Below are positions 4,288-42,420 of a stretch of 59,525 nucleotides of DNA, in pieces. The notes under the pieces are model-generated. The model saw only the letters and a list, made by a program, of their open reading frames with translations, did not search any database and was not told the origin of the DNA. Position 1 is the stretch's first letter. Each line of letters opens with the position of its first letter. Source of the DNA: Thermincola carboxydiphila (GTDB lineage Bacteria > Bacillota > Thermincolia > Thermincolales > UBA2595); the NCBI GenBank assembly GCA_016841045.1, contig JAENZX010000022.1, positions 1 through 59,525 on the forward strand, read 5' to 3'. The translations under genes and the position numbers were made by a program.

Positions 4288-4645
4288 TCGAGTAAATCAG
4301 GTGATCGCGGGTACCAGTCCGAAAGGCGGTATCTGAGGAAAGTCCGGGCTCCACAGGGCAGGGTGCTGGGTAATACCCAGTGGGGGCGACCCTAAGGAAA
4401 GTGCCACAGAGACATACCGCCGATGGCCCGTAAGGGCACAGGTAAGGGTGGAAAGGTGAGGTAAGAGCTCACCAGCGGCTAGGTGACTAGTTGGCTAGGT
4501 AAACCCCACCTGGAGCAAGACCGAATAGGGGAACTATGGAGCTGCCCGTTCCGTTCCCGGGTTAGGTCGCATGAGGCGTCCTGGTAACAGGCGTCCCAGA
4601 TAGATGATCATCCAACGACAAAACTCGGCTTATCGATTTACTCGG
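4288..4645 (+). ncRNA. rnpB: RNase P RNA
   Basis: This is the catalytic RNA of RNase P, which matures tRNA 5' ends. The P1 ends pair (CGAGTAAATC at 4289-4298 with GATTTACTCG at 4635-4644). Core landmarks are in order: GAGGAAAGTCCGGGCTCC near 4335-4352, ACAGAGACATACCGCC near 4405, GGTAAGGGTGGAAAGGTG, and the 3' CATCCAACGACA near 4609-4621 that pairs in P4. It lies downstream of the RNase H-cupin gene, as an independent RNA with its own terminator. Confidence 0.96.
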
Positions 4646-4663
4646 TTTTAATTATGCAGTCAC

Positions 4664-4696
4664 GATGAATATTTATACAAATATCCATCATTTTTT
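4664..4696 (+). terminator. rnpB intrinsic terminator
   Basis: GATGAATATTT pairs with AAATATCCATC around a short loop, followed by six T residues. It lies about 20 bases past the RNase P RNA 3' end. Confidence 0.75.
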
Positions 4697-4755
4697 ATGC
4701 CTAAATCGCCTGTTTAATTAACCCGAACATGGTGGATTAAATGGCTGAACTGCGT

Positions 4756-4784
4756 TTAGACGGTCTGAAAAGTTTTAGTATAAT
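4756..4784 (+). promoter_or_regulatory. Sigma-A-type promoter in repeat copy 1
   Basis: TTAGAC at 4756-4761, a 17-base spacer, and TATAAT at 4779-4784. The ATG of the WYL remnant begins only six bases beyond the -10, so that remnant would be leaderless. The promoter was probably taken from elsewhere or once served a different gene. Confidence 0.6.
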
Positions 4785-4789
4785 TATCG

Positions 4790-5379: not shown

Positions 5380-5700
5380 ATGGTAGATAATCAAAAGATA
5401 TCTATAATTGTAGAAAAGCTGGTAAAGGCCTATGAACCAAAGAAAATATATCTTTTTGGCTCCTTTGCATGGGGAACACCACAAGAGGACAGTGACCTGG
5501 ATATTCTTATAATTGTTGAACACTCAGAACAAAAACCATATAAAAGAATGAAACCGGCTTATCAGGCTCTGAGGGATATGAGAGTTTCAAAAGATATATT
5601 GGTATACACCGAAGAGGAATTTGAAAAACTTGCATTAGAGCCATCTTCATTATTTTATAAAATAAAACTCCATGGAGTGAAACTTTATGAAGCCGCATGA
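5380..5700 (+). CDS. MNT-domain nucleotidyltransferase (antitoxin-type)
   Basis: A 106-residue minimal nucleotidyltransferase. It has the exact GSX10DXD signature (GSFAWGTPQEDSDLD, about residues 27-41). In characterised MNT-HEPN pairs this domain AMPylates and neutralises its HEPN partner. The start ATG at 5380 follows a very strong AGGAGGGAGGAG. It overlaps the HEPN gene by 14 bases, the usual arrangement for this toxin-antitoxin type. Its position between two copies of the rnpB-side repeat suggests acquisition as a small cassette. Confidence 0.87.
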   Translation: MVDNQKISIIVEKLVKAYEPKKIYLFGSFAWGTPQEDSDLDILIIVEHSEQKPYKRMKPAYQALRDMRVSKDILVYTEEEFEKLALEPSSLFYKIKLHGVKLYEAA

Positions 5701-6073
5701 AGACTGGTTAATTAAGGCTGAACACGATTTATTGTCTTCGAAGAAATTATTTGCTGGTGACGATCCAATTCTTGATACAGCGGTATATCATACGCAGCAA
5801 TGTGCTGAGAAATCATTAAAGGCCTATTTAGCATATTACGGAAAACCTGTGATTAGGACTCATGATCTGAATGAACTGGTTAACCAATGTGCTGACATTG
5901 ACCCGGATTTTGGTGTTTTACATGACCTTGTTGATGAATTAAATCCTTATAGCACACTTTTCCGATATCCCGGTGATTTATTGATACCGGAATACTCAGA
6001 TGTGGAAATAGCTATTGAATTTGCTGCGAAGGTAATGAGTTTTGTCACAGAAAAGATTAAGAAGCACGACTGA
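5687..6073 (+). CDS. HEPN-domain protein (toxin-type partner)
   Basis: A 128-residue all-helical HEPN protein of the COG1895 type. Family signatures are seen in order: WLIKAEHDL near the start, HTQQCAEKSLKAYL near residue 35, and RTHDLNELV near 56. The canonical RX4-6H RNase motif of HEPN toxins is not evident; only the RTHDL segment is. Ribonuclease activity is therefore less certain than the fold. It is translationally coupled to the upstream MNT gene by a 14-base overlap and followed by a strong terminator. Together they form a two-gene toxin-antitoxin candidate. Confidence 0.85.
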   Translation: MKPHEDWLIKAEHDLLSSKKLFAGDDPILDTAVYHTQQCAEKSLKAYLAYYGKPVIRTHDLNELVNQCADIDPDFGVLHDLVDELNPYSTLFRYPGDLLIPEYSDVEIAIEFAAKVMSFVTEKIKKHD

Positions 6074-6372: not shown

Positions 6373-6408
6373 ATGAGAGCAAAAATCAAAAAAGTTGAAA
6401 CACGGTGA
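6373..6408 (+). pseudogene. Eleven-codon frame truncated at the repeat junction
   Basis: A textbook TTGGAGGAG ribosome site precedes ATG at 6373. The frame reads MRAKIKKVETR and then stops at 6406-6408, inside the first bases of repeat copy 2 (6401). The simplest reading is the start of a real gene cut off where copy 2 joins. A genuine micro-peptide cannot be excluded. Confidence 0.4.
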
Positions 6409-6525
6409 ATATTTTTACAGATATTCATCATTTTTTATGCCTAAATCGCCTGTTTAATTAACCCGAACATGGTGGATTAAATGGCTGAACTGGGTTTAGA
6501 CGGTCTGAAAAGTTTTAGTATAATT
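6401..6525 (+). repeat. 125-bp direct repeat, copy 2
   Basis: Second copy of 4661-4785. The left end again holds the hairpin plus T-run, and the right end a promoter (TTAGAC 6496-6501, 17 bases, TATAAT 6519-6524). No rnpB precedes it, so this copy is displaced. The sequence to its left shares no visible similarity with rnpB. Confidence 0.85.
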
Positions 6526-7181: not shown

Positions 7182-9542
7182 ATGTATAAAATATGTTGGG
7201 ATATGGGAATTAATGGTGTTTTGATTTCTGATTCAATTCACGAAAAAAATGATATTGTACCACCAAGACCAGTATTTCATGAGGAACTAGACCTTCTTGG
7301 ATTTAAAGAAAAGTTTAATTATTCGGACTCGAAGGCTCCGTTACTTTGGGCAATAGATAGGCGTTATTATTATATGGGGCAATTAGTAGCAGAGGTGCGT
7401 GGGGGTAGCATTTATAAGGATCCCCAAGTTTCCTTTGCTGAGGATTTTAAACTGAAATCGTTTGAGCCGATTGATGTTAATACAATGATTCAGAGAAACA
7501 TGAAATCCATTTCTGCCCTTGAAAATGAGGCAATGGACTTTGCCCGAGACGCTTTTTCAAAATACAAAAATAAGGTTGATGGATTTGTTGTGGCCTTTAG
7601 TGGGGGGAAGGATTCGCAAGTTATACTCGATATTGTTAGTCGAGTAATACCGCCAAAGGAATACAAAGTGATATTTACAGACACGGGGATGGAACTTCCG
7701 CTTACCTATGAAACAGTCGAACAAACTAGAAAAGTTTACAGTAAAAAATATAATGATTTTGAATTAGTAAAAGCTGAAAGTGACAAAACGGCTATTAGCC
7801 TTTGGAAGAAGTATGGGCCACCAAGCAGAATAAATAGGTGGTGCTGTTCTGTTTTAAAGACTGCGCTTTTTGGGAGAAAAATGCGAGATTTGCTTTCTGT
7901 AAAAGGACAACCAAGATTGGTTGTATACGAAGGGGTTCGCGCTGACGAAAGTAATAAACGGGAGACCTATAACAGAATAGGTGAAGGAGTTAAACATATA
8001 AACCTAACTAATTGTAGGCCTATTTTTAAATGGAACACAACAGAAATTTTTCTGTATCTATTTTACCGGGAAATAGAAATTAATGCCGCTTATAGATTAG
8101 GTTTTAACAGAGTTGGTTGCAGTGTATGCCCCTTTGCGTCCGACTGGTCGGAGTTTTTGATTAGAAAGCATTATGAGGATATTGCAAAGAGTTATGTTGA
8201 TGTTATTGCAAGAATGGCGAAAAATATGGGGATTGTTTCTGAAACAAAAATTCAAAATTACATTGATGTAGGAAACTGGAAAAAGAATGCCGGAGGCAAA
8301 GGTTTGGAGGTCGATGGTTCTCGAATTGATGTTTTAACAAAAGAGCCAAACTTTGAGGCCGTTATAACTCAACCAAAAACCGAGTTTTTGACCTGGCTTC
8401 AAATTGTTGGTGATTTTATGTTAAACAAAAAAGACGAAAATACATATCTCGGTGAACTGAATTACAATGATGAAGTTTATAGATTTGAATTGCAAACAGT
8501 TGACTCTCAAAAAGCGGTTTTTAAAGTATTTAACACCACTAATAAAATTTTATTAGTTAGTGCTTTAAATAAAATATTAAATAAAACCGCTTATTGCGAA
8601 AAATGCGGAGTATGCGAAATGGAATGCCCCACGGGAGCACTAAGGATATTACCAAATCACCAGGTTGAGGTTTCTGCATGTGCACGATGCAGGAATTGCT
8701 TAAATGTAGCTAGTAAGGGCTGCATTATCGCAGAGAGAAGAAAATTTACGGAGGGGGAAACCAAAGTGAGTTTGAAATCTTCAAGTATTGACAAATACTC
8801 AACCTTCGGGCTAAGGGAATTGTGGCTTACAAACTTTTTTGAAGAAATGGATAACTGGTTTTTGAATAACGGTGGGCTTGGTAGCAAACAGGTTCCCGCA
8901 ATGATCAGTTGGTTAAGGGAATCTGAATTACTTGAAGCTAAGGAGAAAAAAACCACTGAGTTAGCGAAAATACTGAAGGGCATTTTTTATAAAAATCCGT
9001 TATTAGTTTGGCAAATTGTCTGGGTCAATCTAGCTTTTAATTCTACAATTGTTAAATGGTATGTGGAAAAAGTACAGAATGAAATAGCTTATTCTAAACC
9101 TGAATTGTTGATTCAGCTAAAAGAAGATTATCCTAATTTTAAAGAAGGAACGCTGGATAATCCTCTATCTGCATTATTTAATACCTTTGAAAACTCTCCT
9201 TTAGGATCTTCTTTAGAAATTGGGGTTATTCAAAAAAGAGGAAACATTCGTAGCGTAGTTAAAATAGGGGGCAATTTTATTAGTTCAGCGACAATAGCAT
9301 ATTTAATATACAAGTTTGCAAGGCAAAGAAACTGTTTTGAACTTACAGTTTCCGATCTATATAATGAGGCAGGTAATCCAAGTAAGTTACTTGGTGTCTC
9401 TACTGATTATTTTTTAAATTGTTTAAGATCTCTTCAGGAGGAAGGAAAAGACATAGTAAAAGTAGACTTGCTTGGTGGCCTTGATAATATACATCTTTGT
9501 GAAGATTACGATGAATTGGCTATCTTAAGAATGCTTATTTAG
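7182..9542 (+). CDS. brxP: BREX type 4 PAPS-reductase-like protein BrxP
   Basis: The product has 786 residues from ATG 7182, chosen for its GGGTGA ribosome site; an in-frame TTG at 7170 overlaps that site. An ATP-pyrophosphatase P-loop (FSGGKDS, residues 139-145) opens a PAPS-reductase domain. It carries the paired-cysteine RWCCSVLK and GCSVCPF motifs typical of 4Fe-4S APS reductases. A ferredoxin-like segment near residues 465-510 (CEKCGVCEMECP, then CARCRNC) could hold further Fe-S clusters. The C-terminal ~270 residues are unassigned. In type 4 BREX this protein replaces the PglX methylase, which suggests sulfur-based rather than methyl DNA marking. First gene of the island. Confidence 0.88.
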   Translation: MYKICWDMGINGVLISDSIHEKNDIVPPRPVFHEELDLLGFKEKFNYSDSKAPLLWAIDRRYYYMGQLVAEVRGGSIYKDPQVSFAEDFKLKSFEPIDVNTMIQRNMKSISALENEAMDFARDAFSKYKNKVDGFVVAFSGGKDSQVILDIVSRVIPPKEYKVIFTDTGMELPLTYETVEQTRKVYSKKYNDFELVKAESDKTAISLWKKYGPPSRINRWCCSVLKTALFGRKMRDLLSVKGQPRLVVYEGVRADESNKRETYNRIGEGVKHINLTNCRPIFKWNTTEIFLYLFYREIEINAAYRLGFNRVGCSVCPFASDWSEFLIRKHYEDIAKSYVDVIARMAKNMGIVSETKIQNYIDVGNWKKNAGGKGLEVDGSRIDVLTKEPNFEAVITQPKTEFLTWLQIVGDFMLNKKDENTYLGELNYNDEVYRFELQTVDSQKAVFKVFNTTNKILLVSALNKILNKTAYCEKCGVCEMECPTGALRILPNHQVEVSACARCRNCLNVASKGCIIAERRKFTEGETKVSLKSSSIDKYSTFGLRELWLTNFFEEMDNWFLNNGGLGSKQVPAMISWLRESELLEAKEKKTTELAKILKGIFYKNPLLVWQIVWVNLAFNSTIVKWYVEKVQNEIAYSKPELLIQLKEDYPNFKEGTLDNPLSALFNTFENSPLGSSLEIGVIQKRGNIRSVVKIGGNFISSATIAYLIYKFARQRNCFELTVSDLYNEAGNPSKLLGVSTDYFLNCLRSLQEEGKDIVKVDLLGGLDNIHLCEDYDELAILRMLI

Positions 9543-9560
9543 ATATTGGAGTTGATGTAA

Positions 9561-9758
9561 ATGACATCGAAGATATGCCATTATTGCTTGAGTAAGCTTG
9601 ATAGAGATACTGTTGGTTTGAACAAAAAACTTTTAGGTAGACAAACAAAACAATTTCTTTGCTTGAAATGTTTGCAAGGGTATCTTGAGGTAACAGAGGA
9701 AGAATTACTGGAGAAAATTCAGTACTATAAAGATCAAGGTTGTACATTGTTTGTATAG
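9561..9758 (+). CDS. Small double-CxxC protein between brxP and brxC
   Basis: A 65-residue protein with two zinc knuckles, CHYC at residues 6-9 and CLKC near 34-37, followed by an acidic helix (VTEEELLEKIQYY) and a short CTLF tail. ATG 9561 follows a GGAG. It sits 18 bases behind brxP and 23 bases before brxC, in the same operon and with the same AT-rich composition. It is not one of the four classic type 4 BREX genes. By size and position it may be a zinc-binding adaptor or regulator for BrxP or BrxC. The family is not recognised. Confidence 0.75.
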   Translation: MTSKICHYCLSKLDRDTVGLNKKLLGRQTKQFLCLKCLQGYLEVTEEELLEKIQYYKDQGCTLFV

Positions 9759-9781
9759 CATCAAGGAGGCGAAATAATCAA

Positions 9782-12700
9782 ATGAAGTTTTCAGAAGTAG
9801 TTGGGATACATTCCTATTTTCAAGATGTTTTCGATATGATGGATGAACACGAAAATTATTGGAAAAGGTTTATTTCAAACGAAATGTTCGAAGATATATT
9901 GAATACTACATTAGATTGTTTAACAAATTCATCCGATGATAAGAAAAAATCTGTGTGGGTACAAGGAGCTTATGGAACAGGGAAAAGCCATTCAACATCG
10001 GTAGTAAAACATTTATTATCGGATGAATTCGACCTCATTCAGGATTATATTGACCAAATAGGTAATGTGCAATTAAGGCAAAGACTGTCTGTGTTCAGGT
10101 CTACTAATAGGGTATTTCCGGTGGTTCTTAAAGGTGTAAATAGTATCGTTGATTCATTGGATTTATGTTATGTTATTCAAAATGCTGTAACCAACGCCCT
10201 CTCAAGCCGAGGTATAGAACTAACTACAACTTCAGATTTCAGCCAAATGATTGAACGTCTTGACGAGGCGAAATTAAATGGCTTCTGGGAAAGTGCGTTA
10301 GAGTCTAACCAAGAACTTTCGATGTATGCTAACAATATAAACGACCTAAAACAAGAACTTGCAAACCATAACAAGAATGTTTTAAGAATTTTAACTAATG
10401 AGCTTAAGCAGGCCAATCTTATTGTTGGCCAGCGCTCAATTGAAAAATGGTTAAAAGAAGTTTTAGAAGAACTTAGGGGAATTCACATTGCCGATCAAAT
10501 GGTTATCTTTTGGGATGAGTTTACGTCAGTTCTTGAACTTAATGATCGTAGGTCTCTTCTTACACAGATTCAAAATATTGCAGAATTAAGTAAAACTGGA
10601 GTTTATTTATATATTGTTTCACATAAAAAGATGGATGCCATTTTAGGTTTTAAAGAATTAAAAGAAGATGAAAGAACCATGGCAAAAGATAGATTTCGGG
10701 AAAAAGGATATGATATGCAGCCGACTACTACATATCATATTATTTCAAGTGCTATTCTGAAGCATGATGAAGAAAAATGGGCTGAATTAAAGCAAAGTCG
10801 TATTTCTGAAAATATCGAACTTGTTGATTTAATTCATAAATTAACACAAAATACAGTAAATAGTGGCATCGTTAAAGAAAAAATGCAAGATATTTATCCA
10901 ATTCACCCCTATACTGCATATCTTGCCACTTTTGTTTCTCGGAATATTGGGTCAACTGAAAGAAGTATATTTAAGTTCTTAAATAACGAAGAACGCGGCT
11001 TTAAACATTTTCTACAGAATAAAGTTGTAGATAAGCCTTTTTTGTCCGCAGAATATATTTGGGATTTTTTTGTAGATGATTTTGAACAAGATACTGCCAA
11101 TAAATTTGATTCGGTCACAAATAAATATAAGTTATATATTAACCAGATTGATCCCAAAGGTGAAATATATGTAAATGTATTTAAAGTTGTATTACTTTTA
11201 AACATCCTTTATAAAATGACAATGACTTTAAGCGTAACAGATGAAAAGAGTTTCGTTGTACCCAGCGAAGAGAACATTACATTATCTTTTAGAGGTGTCT
11301 ATAATTCGGAAGATGTTAGGAAGGTTCTTGACTATATAGACAATAATCAAATTATTTATAAATCTCCAGAAGGTATTTTTGAAATTGCATTTACAAGTTT
11401 GCCACCCAAACAAATACAGGATGAGAAAAATAAAGAGTACCGTAAATACGAAGATGTAACAAAGTTACTTGACCAGTACACATTGGACAAAGATCGTCTT
11501 GTAAATCAGTTGAAAAGAGCAGTACCGCGAGAATTAGAGGTAAAATTCTTCTGGGGGGGTGAAAGTGAGCATTTAACAAGAAATCGTTTTAGCACTGCCT
11601 TTACCCGGCCTAATGCTCTTTCTATAGCTGTCGCACTCTTTAGAGGTGAAACGAAAAATCTTGATGATCTTATTTCAAGGCAAGAAAAGAGCCTTGCCGA
11701 AGCATTGAACACAATTATAAATATCTCTAAACAAGCAGACTTTAAAAATATTGCATTTATTGCTGTGCATGAGCCATTAGGTGAAAAAAGATTAGAAGGT
11801 TATGTGGAGCATATAGCGCATAGTATTGTTGCCAAAAACCATAGCTTTGCAAATGAAAAGGTTGAATATGAGACGAAGGCTGCTAAATGGATTAAAGGAT
11901 GGGTTGACAGTATTATAAATAGTTCAGATGCATCAGTCATTTTTAGGGGTAAACAAGTTAACAAACCTTTTAAACTTCTTTGCAATTATTTCGCTGAAGA
12001 TTTGTCCAAAGTCATCTTTTTCAATGGTCTTGAAAAATTAAATCTCAATACAGAGACTATTTGGAAAAAGCAGAATTCCAAGGCTGCTATTGAATGTTTT
12101 GTTTTTCCTGATAGCCGTACTGAATTAGAAGAAAAACTGGTTGGAAATATGGCTTACTTAAGAAATATAGTAAAGAATTCTTCCGGTGATTACATTATTA
12201 ATGAAAAAATGGCCTTTAGAGAAAACACTCCTGAAGACCATGTTTTATATATTATTTGCCAAAAAGTAGAGGAAATAATTGAAGCTTCAAAAGGGAAATC
12301 AGTAGTAAATCTTGGTGATATTTTAAAACCGTTAAATGAGCCACCATACGGTTTGTATCAAAACATAATCAGTATGGCAACTATGTCCTTTGCCTTAAGA
12401 ACTTTGATAAATAAGATATACAAAGAAGGTACAGGTAAATTAGCAGATAAAAACATCATTCGTGATACACTTGTTTCTTTGTTCAACTATTGGAAGGATA
12501 ATAAAGAAAAAGATAAATTATACTTTCGATTTAGCACCGATGAAGAACGGGAGTTAGTGGAACAATTAAAAAAATTATTTGGTTTAGAAGAGGCGGAGGG
12601 ACTGATTAAGACTAAATGGGCATTAAGAGAAAAATTCGCATCTAGTAATAATAGTCCCTTGTGGGCGTTAAAGTATCTAGATAATTCAAACCAAAATTTA

Positions 12701-13249
12701 AACACAACTCTTGATAAATTATTCGAATTTACTATAAAAGTAGACCAAGATATTCAGCAGGCTGATGTTTGCGAGTTATTGGAACTGATTAAAAATAACT
12801 TCATTGATATTTCTCTTGCTCTTTCCAATTTAGGAACGGAGAACGGTTTAAATGCTTATTTCATGCAAATCGCCGAAGCAAATATTAATGAAGCTGATAT
12901 TCCGCAATTAATTGTTTACCTGGATACAAATTTGCATGAGAATAAAGCATTTTGGGAAGAAGAAAAAGTACATCAATTGGTTTGGAAATGGCTTGCAATA
13001 CGCAACACACCCCCTCCTGGGCCTAATCCCAACCCTAACCCTCCTGGTGGCGGAGAACCTCCCCTTCCACCTCAACCTTGGCCAGATGATAATGGGGATG
13101 ATTCAACTGACGAAGATACAGAACAACAAATATTGATTGAGAAAATTACTAATTATCAAGGGAGTTATGAAGACTTTAAGCACGTAATTATAACTGTTGT
13201 GAAGGAAAATCCTAGTTTGATTTTTGTAATTCGTAAATACTTGGATTAG
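9782..13249 (+). CDS. brxC: BREX P-loop ATPase BrxC
   Basis: A 1155-residue large ATPase. ATG 9782 is chosen because AAGGAGGCG lies 7-12 bases upstream; the in-frame ATG at 9740 lies inside the previous gene. Walker A GAYGTGKS is at residues 62-69, and a Walker B-like MVIFWDEF is near residue 240. A proline-rich low-complexity linker (PPPGPNPNPNPPGGG) lies about 75 residues before the end. BrxC/PglY proteins are essential BREX components that are thought to couple ATP use to DNA engagement. Codon use is strongly AT-biased compared with the flanking metabolic genes, which fits lateral transfer. Confidence 0.9.
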   Translation: MKFSEVVGIHSYFQDVFDMMDEHENYWKRFISNEMFEDILNTTLDCLTNSSDDKKKSVWVQGAYGTGKSHSTSVVKHLLSDEFDLIQDYIDQIGNVQLRQRLSVFRSTNRVFPVVLKGVNSIVDSLDLCYVIQNAVTNALSSRGIELTTTSDFSQMIERLDEAKLNGFWESALESNQELSMYANNINDLKQELANHNKNVLRILTNELKQANLIVGQRSIEKWLKEVLEELRGIHIADQMVIFWDEFTSVLELNDRRSLLTQIQNIAELSKTGVYLYIVSHKKMDAILGFKELKEDERTMAKDRFREKGYDMQPTTTYHIISSAILKHDEEKWAELKQSRISENIELVDLIHKLTQNTVNSGIVKEKMQDIYPIHPYTAYLATFVSRNIGSTERSIFKFLNNEERGFKHFLQNKVVDKPFLSAEYIWDFFVDDFEQDTANKFDSVTNKYKLYINQIDPKGEIYVNVFKVVLLLNILYKMTMTLSVTDEKSFVVPSEENITLSFRGVYNSEDVRKVLDYIDNNQIIYKSPEGIFEIAFTSLPPKQIQDEKNKEYRKYEDVTKLLDQYTLDKDRLVNQLKRAVPRELEVKFFWGGESEHLTRNRFSTAFTRPNALSIAVALFRGETKNLDDLISRQEKSLAEALNTIINISKQADFKNIAFIAVHEPLGEKRLEGYVEHIAHSIVAKNHSFANEKVEYETKAAKWIKGWVDSIINSSDASVIFRGKQVNKPFKLLCNYFAEDLSKVIFFNGLEKLNLNTETIWKKQNSKAAIECFVFPDSRTELEEKLVGNMAYLRNIVKNSSGDYIINEKMAFRENTPEDHVLYIICQKVEEIIEASKGKSVVNLGDILKPLNEPPYGLYQNIISMATMSFALRTLINKIYKEGTGKLADKNIIRDTLVSLFNYWKDNKEKDKLYFRFSTDEERELVEQLKKLFGLEEAEGLIKTKWALREKFASSNNSPLWALKYLDNSNQNLNTTLDKLFEFTIKVDQDIQQADVCELLELIKNNFIDISLALSNLGTENGLNAYFMQIAEANINEADIPQLIVYLDTNLHENKAFWEEEKVHQLVWKWLAIRNTPPPGPNPNPNPPGGGEPPLPPQPWPDDNGDDSTDEDTEQQILIEKITNYQGSYEDFKHVIITVVKENPSLIFVIRKYLD

Positions 13250-13261
13250 AGGGGTTACGAT

Positions 13262-15607
13262 ATGTCTCAAGAAGTATTTGGAAAGTATGTCTCAGTATTA
13301 CAAGAGGATAAAGAAAAAGAAGGAAGTTATAAACGTTACCCGGTAAGGTTCATTTTTCTCCCAGATACCCAGTTTTACGAAAAATTAATTTCTCACCTCG
13401 CTAATAATGGGAGTGAGGTCGTTGAGCTGTCGTCGTTACTGAAAAGGGATGACGGTTGGATTGATTATTCTATGTTGTTTGATATTATTAAGTCTTTTGA
13501 TAAAAATAAGGACTACACCGTAGTTGGTTTTTCCGAGGTAGTTAGGTTTTACAAAAAATCCGAGCTGGAAACGCTGATTGTATCTTTGTTGTCTGACCTG
13601 GAAAACTTAGGTGGTGGCTCAAATCGAAGGATATACATTCTTTGTTTGGGGTTGTATGATTTAATATACAAAATATCAAACGAGAAACACAACCGGCTCA
13701 AAGTCTATAATCCTGTCATTTTCCCAGGTGTTTTGCAGTCAGAAACAAATATAAATCTTTATTTTACAGAAGTTGAAAATTTAAATGAATTAACAAAAGT
13801 TCAGATAAAAACCGTAAGAGAGTGGCTAAACATCTGGACGAAAGGTAATCAAATCTCCAGTCCTTTAATATGTACTTCTAGGACATTAAACTATTGGTAT
13901 TCAAACGCAAAACCAGATAACGTCTTCTTAATTCAAAAACTTGATAACGAAAAGGAAATACTTAAAAAAATACTAAATTTTGATTTTCCCTTTAGTTATA
14001 AGGCAGACGAACGTAAATTCTGGTCAAATCTTTTGGTTGATGCGTACGAAAATCCGGAGAAAAGTCCAATTGAATTAATTTCATCTATCCTAAACATTCA
14101 TAACCTTGCTAATGTTAGTTTGACAGACGTTTGGCTTCTAAATAATGATACCTATAAGAGATGGTTAATTAAACTTTTAGTAGAGCATTACTCTAATCTT
14201 CTTGGTATTGATGATTATCATAAGACTGTTATTGAAAAGTTGAAGACCTTTGAAAATGAAGAATACATTAGAATGGCTTGGATGACGATTTTTGGAACCG
14301 AGCAAGATTCAGATGATTGGTTTAGACAGAGAAAGAAGCTTTTGATGCAAATCAATTCGCATAACATAAACCACTTAATTTTTGAAGATGAATTGAATCT
14401 AATTCTAAATGGTATAAACGACATTGAATTACTTAAGAAATTATTAACAGATATAACATCTGCCGAAAAGAAAAAAATCATAAAGCTTTTCGCTGAAAGC
14501 TTCATAAATGAAAGTGAGGTAAAAGAACTTTACCCATCCTTTTATTCTTACATTAAAGGAACTGTAAATTATGATAACATTAATAACGTACAATGGATAA
14601 TGTCATATATTTCAAAATATAAAAACGCTAAAATTCATAATGACTTTACAGATGAATTAAAAGATGCTATTAATAGGTGCAACGGTAATAGTGAAAAGTT
14701 TTATAAATGGTATTTTAGACTTCAATATGTTAATGAAATTTTAAAAAATGAACATTACGACAGAATCATTTTTTTGGATGGGGTGGGAATTGAGTGGGCA
14801 GAAGTAGTCGCTAATGCAATCAACAATAAAAAATATTTTATTAAAAGGGCATTCATTGCAAAATCCGAATTGCCTTCCATAACTGAATGTAACAAGCTTG
14901 ATGATGGAAACCCCCAACCTATACAAAACTTTGACAAAGAAGTAATTCATGGTAGTTATTATTTATGGCCCGATAAACTAATCGAAGCCATAGATTTTAT
15001 CAATAAAATAATTAATAATCAAATATTTCTTAAAGAGAATGAGACGGTTGCTATTATTTCCGATCACGGAAGTACCTGCACTCACTGTTTAGCAAAAGAC
15101 ACAAAAATTTACAACTACGAAAAAGCAGAACATGGTGGCAGATGCATGGTTTGGGATCAGGGCATAGTAGAAAATGAAGATTATCTAGTATATAACAATA
15201 AAAATCAGGAAAAATGGGTTGTACCCCTAAATCATATTTCGTTAAAAAATCGTTCTCCATATGAGGTACATGGAGGGGCAACTCCTGAAGAAGTAATTAT
15301 TCCAATCTTTTTAGTATCTAAACGGAAATCAAAAGACGAAGTTAAAATTAAGAACTATGAAATCGAAGCAATTAATTGTAAAATTACCGGATTAAACAGA
15401 AAAGTCAGTTTCAAAATTACTCCTACGCCTCACATGAAACCGGTATTAATTGATGAAACGCAAAAAGAGTATCAATTAAATGAAACTAATGGTTTATGGG
15501 AAACCGAACTAACTAAGGTCAAAAAACAGAATGTAACTATTGTGATAGGCACGCAGAAAAAGAACTTTGTCATAAAGACTTCGTTTGAAGAAGGTGACTT
15601 ATTTTAA
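13262..15607 (+). CDS. pglZ: BREX phosphatase-superfamily protein PglZ
   Basis: The product has 781 residues. The PglZ domain occupies the second half: IIFLDGVGIEW near residue 500 and AIISDHGST near 598 provide the Asp and His ligands expected for an alkaline-phosphatase-like metal site. The C-terminal ~90 residues form a beta-rich segment. PglZ is the signature gene of all BREX types. ATG 13262 follows AGAGGGG, 12 bases after brxC, and its stop overlaps the brxL start in TAATG. The N-terminal half is unassigned, as is common for this family. Confidence 0.9.
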   Translation: MSQEVFGKYVSVLQEDKEKEGSYKRYPVRFIFLPDTQFYEKLISHLANNGSEVVELSSLLKRDDGWIDYSMLFDIIKSFDKNKDYTVVGFSEVVRFYKKSELETLIVSLLSDLENLGGGSNRRIYILCLGLYDLIYKISNEKHNRLKVYNPVIFPGVLQSETNINLYFTEVENLNELTKVQIKTVREWLNIWTKGNQISSPLICTSRTLNYWYSNAKPDNVFLIQKLDNEKEILKKILNFDFPFSYKADERKFWSNLLVDAYENPEKSPIELISSILNIHNLANVSLTDVWLLNNDTYKRWLIKLLVEHYSNLLGIDDYHKTVIEKLKTFENEEYIRMAWMTIFGTEQDSDDWFRQRKKLLMQINSHNINHLIFEDELNLILNGINDIELLKKLLTDITSAEKKKIIKLFAESFINESEVKELYPSFYSYIKGTVNYDNINNVQWIMSYISKYKNAKIHNDFTDELKDAINRCNGNSEKFYKWYFRLQYVNEILKNEHYDRIIFLDGVGIEWAEVVANAINNKKYFIKRAFIAKSELPSITECNKLDDGNPQPIQNFDKEVIHGSYYLWPDKLIEAIDFINKIINNQIFLKENETVAIISDHGSTCTHCLAKDTKIYNYEKAEHGGRCMVWDQGIVENEDYLVYNNKNQEKWVVPLNHISLKNRSPYEVHGGATPEEVIIPIFLVSKRKSKDEVKIKNYEIEAINCKITGLNRKVSFKITPTPHMKPVLIDETQKEYQLNETNGLWETELTKVKKQNVTIVIGTQKKNFVIKTSFEEGDLF

Positions 15608-17037
15608 TGAATGCTCTTGATCAGAAAATAAAAAGTTGTTTTGTTGAAGAATCGGTTCTTAAATATCCTGAACGGTACGGTATCTTTTCCGGAAAGAACC
15701 TACCTTCATTTATCAAAGACTGGCTTATAAAACGATATTCAGATTATAATGGTGAAATAGATAAGGAAGGGTTGCTAACTTTTCTTGAAAATCACATTCC
15801 AGGGAAAGATAGCAACATAAAAACCCGACTTATTCAAGGAGAGGAAATTAAAATACTTGCAAGGGTACTCATTGAGTCAGACTTAAAGAGTGGAGTTCAT
15901 AAATTTGCTATCCCGGACATTGGAATTAAAGCTAACGAAGGTAGAGTAGCACCCTATGTTATAAAGTTAAAGAATGGATTAAAAGAAGGAGAAAACTGGG
16001 GAGTTATTACACTTGATTACATGCAACCCGATGGTAAGGAAAAAGGATATGCCGAACTATCTGAATTTAAACCTTTCAAACCTTACAAAGTTGATTTCGA
16101 ATATTTCTGCGAGGCTCGTAAATCATTTTCCACGCCAGAATGGATTGACTTCCTTATTCGTTGTATGGAATATAACCCGGAGGGCTTTGAAAACTTGACC
16201 CAAAAGTTATTCTTCCTTACAAGGCTACTTGTGTTTGTAGAACCAAATTTAAATTTAATTGAGCTTGCACCTAAAGGTACTGGGAAATCTTATGTTTATG
16301 ATAACTTAAGTAAATATGGCTGGCATATCAGCGGTGGAAAAGTAACCAGAGCAAAATTATTTTATGATATGAATACCAATGTGCCAGGGATTATACCTTC
16401 CTATGAATTTGTTGCAATGGATGAGATTCAGACTATTTCCTTTGATAATGAAGAAGAGTTAAAAGGCGCATTAAAGAACTATCTTGAATTTGGGAATTTT
16501 ACAGTTGGTAAGACAAAGCAAGTATCGCAAGCCGGGTTGATTCTTTTGGGTAATATAGATTTAGACTCTGAAAGAAAACCAATCAGCAAAAAATATTTTA
16601 TGGAACTCCCTCAAATTTTCCACGAGACAGCATTACTAGATAGATTTCATGGATTTATTGAGGGGTGGAAACTACCAAGAATTAACGAAGACCTTAAGCT
16701 TAAAGGCTATACATTGAACGTAGAATATTTTTCAGAAATTTTATCACACATGAGGTCAATTTCAAGATATTCGGCATTAATTTCAGAACTACTTAAAGTT
16801 CCAACTAAAGCTGATACTCGCGATACTACAGCAATCAAAAGATTAACAACGGCTTACTTTAAACTTCTTTTCCCGCATATTACTACCCACGATGGGTTAG
16901 ATATTAACGAATTTAAAACTTTTTGTTTTGAATCTGCATATGAGAAACGAGGAATTATTAAAAAACAACTTGCAATGATGGATCTCGAATATAGAGCTAA
17001 TTTGCCTGATATTGAGATTCGAAACTTTAAATCTTAG
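15607..17037 (+). CDS. brxL: BREX Lon-like ATPase BrxL, short form
   Basis: A 476-residue AAA+ protein with Walker A APKGTGKS at residues 221-228 and Walker B FVAMDE at 268-273. The N-terminal ~200 residues resemble the BrxL N-terminal region. The classic type 1 BrxL is about 680 residues and carries a Lon-like protease fold at its C-terminus. This protein stops before that, as in the shorter BrxL subfamily, so proteolysis is not expected. The start overlaps the pglZ stop by one base, indicating translational coupling. It is the last gene of the BREX operon. Confidence 0.87.
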   Translation: MNALDQKIKSCFVEESVLKYPERYGIFSGKNLPSFIKDWLIKRYSDYNGEIDKEGLLTFLENHIPGKDSNIKTRLIQGEEIKILARVLIESDLKSGVHKFAIPDIGIKANEGRVAPYVIKLKNGLKEGENWGVITLDYMQPDGKEKGYAELSEFKPFKPYKVDFEYFCEARKSFSTPEWIDFLIRCMEYNPEGFENLTQKLFFLTRLLVFVEPNLNLIELAPKGTGKSYVYDNLSKYGWHISGGKVTRAKLFYDMNTNVPGIIPSYEFVAMDEIQTISFDNEEELKGALKNYLEFGNFTVGKTKQVSQAGLILLGNIDLDSERKPISKKYFMELPQIFHETALLDRFHGFIEGWKLPRINEDLKLKGYTLNVEYFSEILSHMRSISRYSALISELLKVPTKADTRDTTAIKRLTTAYFKLLFPHITTHDGLDINEFKTFCFESAYEKRGIIKKQLAMMDLEYRANLPDIEIRNFKS

Positions 17038-17161: not shown

Positions 17162-17830
17162 TTACCCGCATTCGTATGCGTATATATGGGTACTCCCTGG
17201 ATCCAAATGCCCCATCAGCTCCTGAATGGTGACCAAATCAACCCCTGCATCAAGCAAATTAGTAGCAAATGTATGCCGGAGCTTATGAGGCGTATAAATC
17301 TTGGGGTCCAGTCCGGCCTTTGCAATACAATTGCCGAACCGGGTCCGCAGTGTACATCTATCCAGCCTATTACCTTTTTCATTAATGAAAATTGCTTTAT
17401 TAACAAGGGGTAAACGTGTTTGCAAATAGTCCCAGGCCAATTCCAGGACAACATCCTTAACTGGCAGCACCCTTTCCTGCTGTCCTTTACCCATAACCTT
17501 TAATGTTGCTGCTTTAAAGTCAAGGTCATTCCAGTTTAAACTGAGAAACTTTGTGCGCCTGACACCCGTATAGCCGAACACATAAAGCATGAGCTTATCC
17601 TGCAGCCAAAGGTCGTCTTCTTGCATAAAATCAGGCACCCGAAGCAGCCGCTCAAATTCACCTGGTTTTAGATAAATTGGTATCCTCTTAGGTTTTTTGG
17701 CGGTTTGATTTTTCTCATGGGAGAAGCCAATATATAGCCCTGGTCAATACAGTAATTAAAGAAGCTTCTCATGCTGTTTACTCTTCTTGCAATAGTGGCA
17801 GGCTTGTAATTTTTTGTCTGCCCTAAGTGA
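17162..17830 (-). pseudogene. Decayed tyrosine recombinase/integrase
   Basis: The intact part (17162-17638) encodes the catalytic domain. It shows the TGVRRTKFLSL arginine motif, the HKLRHTFAT His-Arg motif, and HLDPGSTHIYAYE with the final His and Tyr. The N-terminal core-binding segment (RRVNSMRSFFNYCIDQG) is recognisable near 17740-17810 but in another frame, so at least one frameshift separates it from the catalytic part. Farther upstream on the same strand, near 17800-17960, an EAVsQPLVrKF-like segment occurs twice, suggesting local duplication. It lies directly behind the BREX island and is probably a relic of the element that brought it in. Confidence 0.8.
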
Positions 17831-18195: not shown

Positions 18196-18296
18196 GGATT
18201 CCGAGATAATGGCAAACCCGCCGAAAGGCGGGGACGCAAAGCCACGGGTCTAAAATTAGTGCAACTGATCATGACCGCCGGGTTACCGAAGGAACC
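18196..18296 (+). promoter_or_regulatory. Cyclic di-GMP-I (GEMM) riboswitch
   Basis: The conserved GEMM-I core is present: GGCAAACC, a CCGCCGAAAGGCGG stem-loop with its GAAA tetraloop, GGGACGCAAAGCCACGGGTCT, then ATGACCGCCGGGTTACCG. It is followed at once by a terminator hairpin and lies upstream of an exported peptide and an exported transglutaminase-like protein. It most likely ties their expression to the cyclic di-GMP level. Whether the ligand turns expression on or off is not visible. Confidence 0.93.
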
Positions 18297-18555: not shown

Positions 18556-18617
18556 AGTTGGACTCGAGAGATATCTTGATCCCGGTAAAACAGTCATAAG
18601 GGAGGGGAGTGTTGGTT

Positions 18618-32687: not shown

Positions 32688-32886
32688 CGGATGAAGGTTG
32701 TGGGAGAGTCCTTTTTTAGAAGGCGCCGAAGGAGTAAGGGGATAGTTGGCTGAACGAACCCCGAAACTCTCAGGCAAAAGTACTGCAGCCGGACGGATCT
32801 CTGGAGAGTTTCTAAGGTAACTTAGAACACCAAAGGGGAATAACTCCGTCAGGGAGTGAATCTCTCAGGTCGCAAGGACAGAGAAA
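32688..32886 (+). promoter_or_regulatory. Tandem glycine riboswitch 1
   Basis: Two adjacent glycine aptamers. The first has GGGAGAGTCC, GGCGCCGAAGGAG and CTCTCAGGCAAAAGTACTGCAG. The second has CTGGAGAG, ACACCAAAGGGG and CTCTCAGGTCGCAAGGACAGAG. It precedes gcvT and ends in a terminator. In known cases glycine binding opens expression of the cleavage system. Confidence 0.95.
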
Positions 32887-41579: not shown

Positions 41580-41850
41580 ACGGATGAAGGCTGCGGGAGA
41601 GACCTTTTTTAAAAGGCGCCGAAGGAGCAAGGGGGGGTACAGCTAAACCGGCCCCGAAACTCTCAGGCAAAAGTACTGCAGCCGGACGGGACTCTGGAGA
41701 GTTTCTAAGTTCATGAACTTAGAACACCAAAGGGGATATCTTCTAAAGAGAAGTGAATCTCTCAGGTCATCAGGACAGAGAAAACCAGAGAATTTAGGAC
41801 AAGAGATTGACTTTTTTAGAAATAAATCTCTCAGGTCGTAAGGACAGAGT
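41580..41850 (+). promoter_or_regulatory. Tandem glycine riboswitch 2 with duplicated 3' half
   Basis: Two aptamers closely match riboswitch 1 (GGGAGAGACC, GGCGCCGAAGGAGCAAGG, CTCTCAGGCAAAAGTACTGCAG, then ACACCAAAGGGG and CTCTCAGGTC). The 3' part of the second aptamer occurs twice: CTCTCAGGTCATCAGGACAGAG at about 41759-41780 and CTCTCAGGTCGTAAGGACAGAG at 41828-41849. A hairpin (AGAGATT/AATCTCT) lies between them. No intact gene follows directly. Confidence 0.9.
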
Positions 41851-42007: not shown

Positions 42008-42420
42008 CGGATGAAGGCTGCGGGAGAGACCTTTTTTATACTACAGGAAAGTATATCTTTTCCACATATACCCGCAAGGGGTACGCCGGATCCGTAGACC
42101 GCTAAAGCGGTAACGGCTCCGCAGTGTGGAAAAGGCTAAGGAATGTAGTACAGAGTGCGTAGCCCTTGAAGCGCAGCTTCTTAGGGATGCGGCCCAACCC
42201 TCGCGGGTGAAAGCGCGCGTATAGGGAACTGAAATATACGCGCTTTTCTAGAAAGGCGCCGAAGGAGCAAGAGGTGGTGTAGCTGGGACGACCTCGAAAC
42301 TTTCAGGCAAAAGAACTGCAGCCGGACGGGGCTCTGGAGAGTTTCTAAGTTCATAAACTTAGGACACCAAAGGTGTTAACTTCAAAGAAGAAGTGAATCT
42401 CTCAGGTTAAAGGACAGAGC
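42008..42420 (+). promoter_or_regulatory. Tandem glycine riboswitch 3, interrupted by an insertion
   Basis: The first aptamer opens as in riboswitch 2 (CGGATGAAGGCTGCGGGAGAGACC) and breaks in the small T-rich hairpin loop near 42037. It resumes at 42251 with AAGGCGCCGAAGGAGCAAG. The rest of aptamer 1 (TTTCAGGCAAAAGAACTGCAG) and aptamer 2 (ACACCAAAGG, CTCTCAGGTTAAAGGACAGAG) are complete. Because the insert sits in a stem-loop tip, ligand folding may be preserved. It controls the gcvPA/gcvPB paralogues. No separate promoter is evident, so it may depend on read-through of riboswitch 2. Confidence 0.88.
42038..42250 (+). other. ~210-nt structured insertion inside a glycine aptamer
   Basis: The insert is absent from the two sister riboswitches. 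It folds in nested fashion: TACTACA (42039-42045) with TGTAGTA, enclosing CTTTTCCACA with TGTGGAAAAG. Inside are a TACCC/GGGTA hairpin, a GCCG/CGGC stem and an ACCGC-TAAA-GCGGT hairpin. The 3' part has CCCT-GAAGC/GCTTC-AGGG and AAAGCGCG.TATA/TATACGCGCTTT. No open frame is supported. It could be a mobile structured RNA element, for example a relative of IS200/IS605-guide RNA or HEARO-like RNAs, or an unknown intron-like RNA. Identity is not established. Confidence 0.7.

Follow-up and report, generated by a model that had tools for sequence, protein, structure and literature searches.

A type 4 BREX island of Thermincola carboxydiphila with a BrxP protein best read as an SspD-SspB fusion

Type 4, found in 457 prokaryotic taxa, has an apparatus for DNA phosphorothioate (PT) formation in place of the methylase (PMC12839542) and is one of the rarer types of bacteriophage exclusion (BREX) system. 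Its core genes, brxPCZL, are described as a DNA PT-making system in PMC11931770 and in PMC12839542, each with reference to Yuan et al. 2024, and PMC11931770, again citing Yuan et al., reports BrxP-dependent PT for the type 4 family. The type 4 counterparts of SspD and SspB are a 3'-phosphoadenosine 5'-phosphosulfate (PAPS) reductase and DUF4007, which frequently form a fusion (PMC12839542). In the Ssp system, nicking by SspB is required for PT formation (PMC8092258), and SspA binds SspD (PMC7188994). The question posed by type 4 is how the sulfur-marking module is linked to PglZ and BrxL. Here we describe an island of this type in Thermincola carboxydiphila, at positions 7182-17037 of a stretch of 59,525 nucleotides (hereafter the window; assembly GCA_016841045.1, contig JAENZX010000022.1, positions 1 to 59,525 of the forward strand). 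The island contains the following genes:

7182..9542, + strand: brxP, 786 aa, ATG at 7182; PADLOC PDLC02510 BrxP, E 6.7e-247 across nearly the whole model
9561..9758, + strand: small gene, 65 aa, predicted zinc-ribbon; homologues in type 4 loci, no curated family
9782..13249, + strand: brxC, 1155 aa, ATG at 9782; PADLOC PDLC02472, E 1.6e-214, full length
13262..15607, + strand: pglZ, 781 aa; NCBIfam BREX_PglZ_4 NF033445, 528.8 bits vs cut-off 140
15607..17037, + strand: brxL, 476 aa; TIGR02688, 471.9 bits vs cut-off 329.3; PF13337, E 8.8e-113; PADLOC BrxL, E 8.5e-209

The brxP, brxC, pglZ and brxL genes are collinear and intact, and each has a near full-length family match. Hence a preliminary description of the DNA, which had reported a complete type 4 BREX island at 7182-17037, gave the right coordinates and genes, and "complete" is a fair word for the four core genes. 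It had also stated that no PglX methylase is present, which agrees with the absence of any match above the family cut-off in the genome (the best reached 55.9 bits vs 500, on another contig). The four core genes, a PglZ of the BREX-4 kind and BrxP in place of PglX place the locus in BREX type 4; judged by its sequence, it is an intact but ordinary copy.

The domain organisation of BrxP is as follows:

residues 136-317, after an N-terminal region: PP-loop PAPS-reductase-like domain (PF01507, E 7e-28) with SGGKDS and CC/CxxC motifs
residues ~465-514: 4Fe-4S ferredoxin-type segment with its Cys motif
residues ~533-786: SspB-like DUF4007 module (PF13182, 29.6 bits vs cut-off 27, Pfam span 540-780) with a fold match to SspB

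SGGKDS is located at residue 140, RWCC at 219 and GCxxC at 312, and the eight ferredoxin-type cysteines are found at 472, 475, 478, 482, 500, 503, 506 and 514. These motifs and the ferredoxin-like segment had been recognised in the preliminary description, and all the motif residues proved invariant in 26 sequences. The AlphaFold2 model of BrxP had a mean predicted local distance difference test score (pLDDT) of 89. In this model, residues ~105-330 matched adenosine 5'-phosphosulfate (APS)/PAPS reductases and related PP-loop enzymes with Z 15-18, and residues 533-786, the C-terminal third that had been overlooked before, matched the SspB crystal structures 6lb9 and 6juf (Z 21.2, root-mean-square deviation 3.1 Å, 251 residues). 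Up to residue ~517, BrxP matches an SspD-like sulfurtransferase that includes a ferredoxin segment: in the Ssp locus of another genome of the phylum (L177), a 556-aa protein matches positions 21-517 of the BrxP model and is followed by a separate 296-aa SspB (DUF4007, E 3.3e-81), SspC and the SspA desulfurase. From this split-gene architecture and the modelled SspB fold, the most plausible reading of BrxP is a single chain that combines SspD and SspB, and it is most likely the writer of a DNA modification rather than an effector. The assimilatory-reductase motif ECG(I/L)H had no match in BrxP, which is therefore unlikely to be a sulfate-assimilation reductase; its CysH score was 52.8 bits against a cut-off of 165.1.

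A second, stand-alone protein of ~255 aa matching brxP was observed directly after brxP in seven type 4 loci (L079, 7303; L080, 4318; L081, 12337; L083, 12389; L084, 12291; L086, 5337; L107, 12288). It is apparently a duplicate of the SspB-like (DUF4007) module, and the 65-aa gene was not detected in these seven loci.

BrxC is an AAA+ ATPase with Walker A GAYGTGKS at residue 62 and Walker B WDEF at residue 244 (95-99% conserved in 78 sequences), and is partly similar to SspC, since SspC models match it across residues 185-485 (E 2.5e-22). It represents a short variant, ~1130-1190 aa in most of its lineage vs ~1390 aa elsewhere. PglZ is a metalloenzyme of the alkaline-phosphatase superfamily, of the BREX-4 kind, in which D506, D601-H602 and H670 are present; D506, D558, D601, H602, H670 and E676/E677 are invariant in 74 sequences. 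BrxL is an AAA+ ATPase without the C-terminal Lon domain, has GTGKS at residue 224 and matches the solved BrxL structure 8emc over residues 5-457. The motifs of the three proteins, among them the GAYGTGKS and PglZ metal motifs listed earlier, are 95-100% conserved across 73-78 sequences, and such conservation across dozens of relatives indicates that the observed motifs are not due to chance. BrxL had been described as short; its relatives in type 4 loci have ~470-520 aa, and as ~480 aa is the norm for type 4, the 476-aa protein is not a truncation. PglZ and BrxL are candidates for the restriction step.

We consider it highly probable that the best explanation is an intact, horizontally acquired type 4 BREX system in which BrxP and BrxC write PT. 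To the gene content, intactness, domains, folds and conservation of this locus, we add the sulfur chemistry, site selection and restriction step by analogy with its relatives in the Ssp and BREX literature; on this reading, the system very probably introduces sulfur into the backbone of the DNA. In the proposed mechanism, BrxP and BrxC would act as the writer: the PP-loop domain of BrxP would activate a backbone phosphate with ATP and then insert sulfur, with the Fe-S clusters taking part, and the sulfur would arrive as a persulfide from a housekeeping cysteine desulfurase. The modelled SspB-like C-terminal module would bind, and may nick, the DNA, thus setting the site and strand, while the SspC-related ATPase BrxC would coordinate loading. 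Unmarked DNA, such as incoming phage DNA, would be acted on by PglZ, as a metal-dependent phosphodiesterase or nuclease-like enzyme, together with the ATPase BrxL. The 65-aa zinc-ribbon protein would be an accessory part. The preliminary description had suggested a sulfur modification or another mark made by BrxP; the sulfur mark is the best-supported reading, but the suggestion is not new, because the literature already treats brxPCZL as PT-making. The preliminary description rightly recognised a known system, and its chemical inference was already in the literature.

There is no cysteine desulfurase in this cluster, a fact missing from the preliminary description. This enzyme is an optional, not a defining, component of type 4, present in the cluster in 56% of type 4 taxa (PMC12839542). 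Elsewhere in the genome there are three desulfurase-type genes, NifS-, IscS- and SclA-like, with NifS scoring above the curated cut-off; these are candidates for the sulfur supply. The relatives were gathered by a BrxP alignment query, which yielded 80 loci, whereas a query of genome contigs with BrxP alone yielded 0. The gene content was compared in 66 type 4 loci that contain the full core set of four and either extend far enough past brxL or have an identified desulfurase; the set includes a few near copies (L049 is the L089 locus), its loci are related by descent, and desulfurase loci were counted even where the downstream sequence was short. Desulfurase genes were found in 43 of these 66 loci, which ties the system to sulfur transfer.

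The same data bear on the possibility that BrxP, which had been called an effector, acts only on infection, for example by depleting a sulfur or adenylated metabolite or by nicking DNA via its SspB-like module, and does not write sulfur into DNA. The DNA-nicking nuclease fold of the C-terminal module and the lack of an own desulfurase at this locus would suit such a role, but the frequent desulfurases of the relatives argue for sulfur transfer, the architecture equals SspD plus SspB of a PT-writing system, and PMC11931770 assigns PT synthesis to brxPCZL. We therefore regard this role as improbable, and the term effector is probably wrong for a protein with SspD-like PP-loop, ferredoxin and SspB-like domains, which suit a modification writer.

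The assignment of BrxP and BrxC as a PT writer also has points against it. The nearest brxP relatives share only 52-55% identity, and the PT function, as given in the papers cited above, would be transferred to this locus because of family membership. Although IscS can replace SspA/DndA in some systems (PMC8092258), chromosomal iscS failed to replace sspA in one Ssp system (PMC7188994); a locus without a dedicated desulfurase could therefore lack its sulfur donor.

The only part of the island that adds something new is the 65-aa gene between brxP and brxC, which the preliminary description did not include. A GGAG ribosome-binding-like sequence is located 9 bases upstream of its ATG. The encoded protein has a CxxC...CxxC arrangement and a cysteine in its C-terminal GCTLF; among 62 distinct homologues, C6, C9, C34, C61 and F64 are invariant, and C37 is kept in 61, being replaced once by His. 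No family of Pfam, NCBIfam or PADLOC covers this protein. Its model (pLDDT 90.5) gave a best Foldseek E of 0.78 and a best Z of 4.0, to sigma region 4, the similarities being weak and mostly helix-turn-helix (HTH)-like.

Homologues of the 65-aa protein are encoded in 57 of the 66 loci, namely in every one of the 43 that have a DndA-like desulfurase and in a further 14, including the locus studied here, that do not; a desulfurase without the 65-aa gene was seen in 0 of the 66 (Fisher p 2e-5). In a search of 398 genomes from the phylum, the top ten matches (E at most 1e-23) came exclusively from the 15 genomes with BREX-4 brxP (hypergeometric p 1e-16, with fragmentary ones counted among the 15 and relatedness ignored). 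In the closest relatives (L074, L075, L076, L078 and L082) the gene occupies the same place, and in other loci it lies between pglZ and brxL or after brxL, which gives three operon positions. Where a desulfurase is present, the 65-aa gene usually directly precedes it.

Distant homologues also adjoin alpha-galactosidase (Melibiase_2) genes in other Bacillota (L170, 5947-6204; L172, 5919-6122; L173, 5937-6140; all on the - strand), where they retain the Cys-x-L-F ending, and no homologue was detected alongside the Ssp-type loci among the 398 genomes. Both observations disfavour a simple sulfur-carrier role. A dedicated persulfide carrier from cysteine desulfurase to BrxP would agree with the presence of the gene in all 43 desulfurase loci, usually immediately before the desulfurase gene, and with the C-terminal Cys (GCxLF) that is invariant in the 62 homologues besides the four zinc-type cysteines. 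However, the 14 loci that have the gene but no desulfurase speak against it, as do the alpha-galactosidase neighbours and the Ssp-type loci, and the weak HTH-like similarity suits a regulator better. A carrier is thus unlikely, and a regulator or assembly factor is likelier. We tentatively suggest, as a possibility with somewhat less than even chances, that the protein serves control of the system, its assembly, or sulfur delivery to BrxP via the invariant C-terminal Cys, and that PT marking or defence of the class would depend on a part outside brxPCZL. If true, experiments with brxPCZL alone would omit a part needed for PT marking or defence; a gene with no Pfam, NCBIfam or PADLOC model is, in this respect, a concrete missing part for reconstitution.

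A small zinc-finger protein next to the type 4 desulfurase is mentioned in one sentence of a 2026 paper (PMC12839542), and probably belongs to the same family. As described there, it is likewise small, Cys-rich, HTH-like and beside the desulfurase in most loci, but the paper links it to the desulfurase, whereas the gene described here is found in loci lacking a desulfurase too and takes three different operon positions.

A tree built from 83 BrxP sequences joins the protein of the window to four loci from Clostridia (support 100), within a wider group that includes Syntrophaceae, Desulfonema, Archaeoglobi and others and mostly has the short BrxC. BrxP relatives with conserved motifs span many phyla; a plasmid of Methanosphaera carries a complete one (39%), as do two records of metagenomic phages, and no near-identical copies of the island were found on plasmids. 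On either side of the island, the following features were located:

4289-4648, + strand: RNase P RNA gene rnpB, with the island downstream of it
17162-17638, - strand: XerC/XerD-like tyrosine-recombinase frame, 158 aa, directly after brxL, without the N-terminal portion of the family models

Three members of the same family share synteny through rnpB up to ~4712; since the DNA beyond differs in each genome, the region following rnpB is variable and may be an integration hotspot. The 158-aa frame is probably the remains of an integrase. A tyrosine-recombinase-like frame likewise follows rnpB in a Thermincola relative. A 125-nt direct repeat (4661-4785 and 6401-6525, 96% identical, seen nowhere else in the genome) starts at the 3' border of the syntenic segment with rnpB. 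It encloses only an MNT nucleotidyltransferase/HEPN pair (5380-6073) immediately beyond rnpB and resembles a duplication produced by an insertion. A search for a repeat of the rnpB 3' region beyond the other end of the island found none. Horizontal acquisition of brxPCZL forms part of the explanation that we hold with high confidence, jointly with an intact type 4 BREX writing a sulfur mark.

Another possibility is that a mobile element left the island behind as a relic that is silent or in decay. Its G+C content of 32-36% vs 46% in the flanks, the short adjacent recombinase frame without its N-terminal part and the lack of a desulfurase in the cluster could be taken as signs of this. However, the five frames are all open and of full length with every conserved residue kept, and the gene order is shared by most relatives of the short-BrxC lineage, so a relic appears very improbable and we retain the intact PT-writing system.

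Beyond the island, a cyclic di-GMP-I riboswitch (18202-18291, + strand) lies upstream of a gene for a large secreted transglutaminase-like protein, named from its sequence, that starts near 18609. Five glycine riboswitch aptamers on the + strand (32691-32884, 41584-41780 and 42331-42420) form two tandem pairs and a single one, the latter ~550 bases beyond the second pair. Elsewhere in the host genome, SspE gave two weak partial matches at both ends of one 698-aa frame (G000:C75:272554-274383; L179, L180), which were not counted in this system.

An intact copy with a compact BrxC and a BrxP readable as an SspD-SspB fusion offers a testable module and can be compared with several known systems. 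BrxP shares with APS/PAPS reductase (CysH) the PP-loop fold (Z 15-18, as above), but has no ECG(I/L)H catalytic tail and is fused to the ferredoxin-type and SspB-like modules. Its CC/CxxC arrangement presumably resembles that of Fe-S type APS reductases. With Dnd (DndABCDE) the likeness lies in DndC, to which the PP-loop ATP pyrophosphatase domain of BrxP is related (E 6e-10), but this low similarity is confined to that domain, and neither DndD nor DndE is among the identified genes of the cluster. According to a published comparison, the Cys dyad of DndC is missing in the type 4 counterpart (PMC12839542). The resemblance to Ssp (SspABCD) is broader: residues 1-517 of BrxP resemble an SspD-like protein encoded in an Ssp locus, residues 533-786 share the fold of SspB and BrxC is partly similar to SspC. 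In contrast, Ssp has separate sspB, sspC and sspD genes, while BrxP unites the SspB and SspD parts in one protein, and Ssp defence relies on SspE or SspFGH, not on PglZ and BrxL. BREX type 4 itself has the same four genes in the same order, the BREX-4 PglZ, the BrxP-DUF4007 fusion, the short BrxL and no PglX; the present locus differs in belonging to the short-BrxC lineage (mostly ~1130-1190 aa vs ~1390 aa) and in having no cysteine desulfurase in the cluster, and its own subclade is distinguished by having the small zinc-ribbon gene placed after brxP and before brxC.

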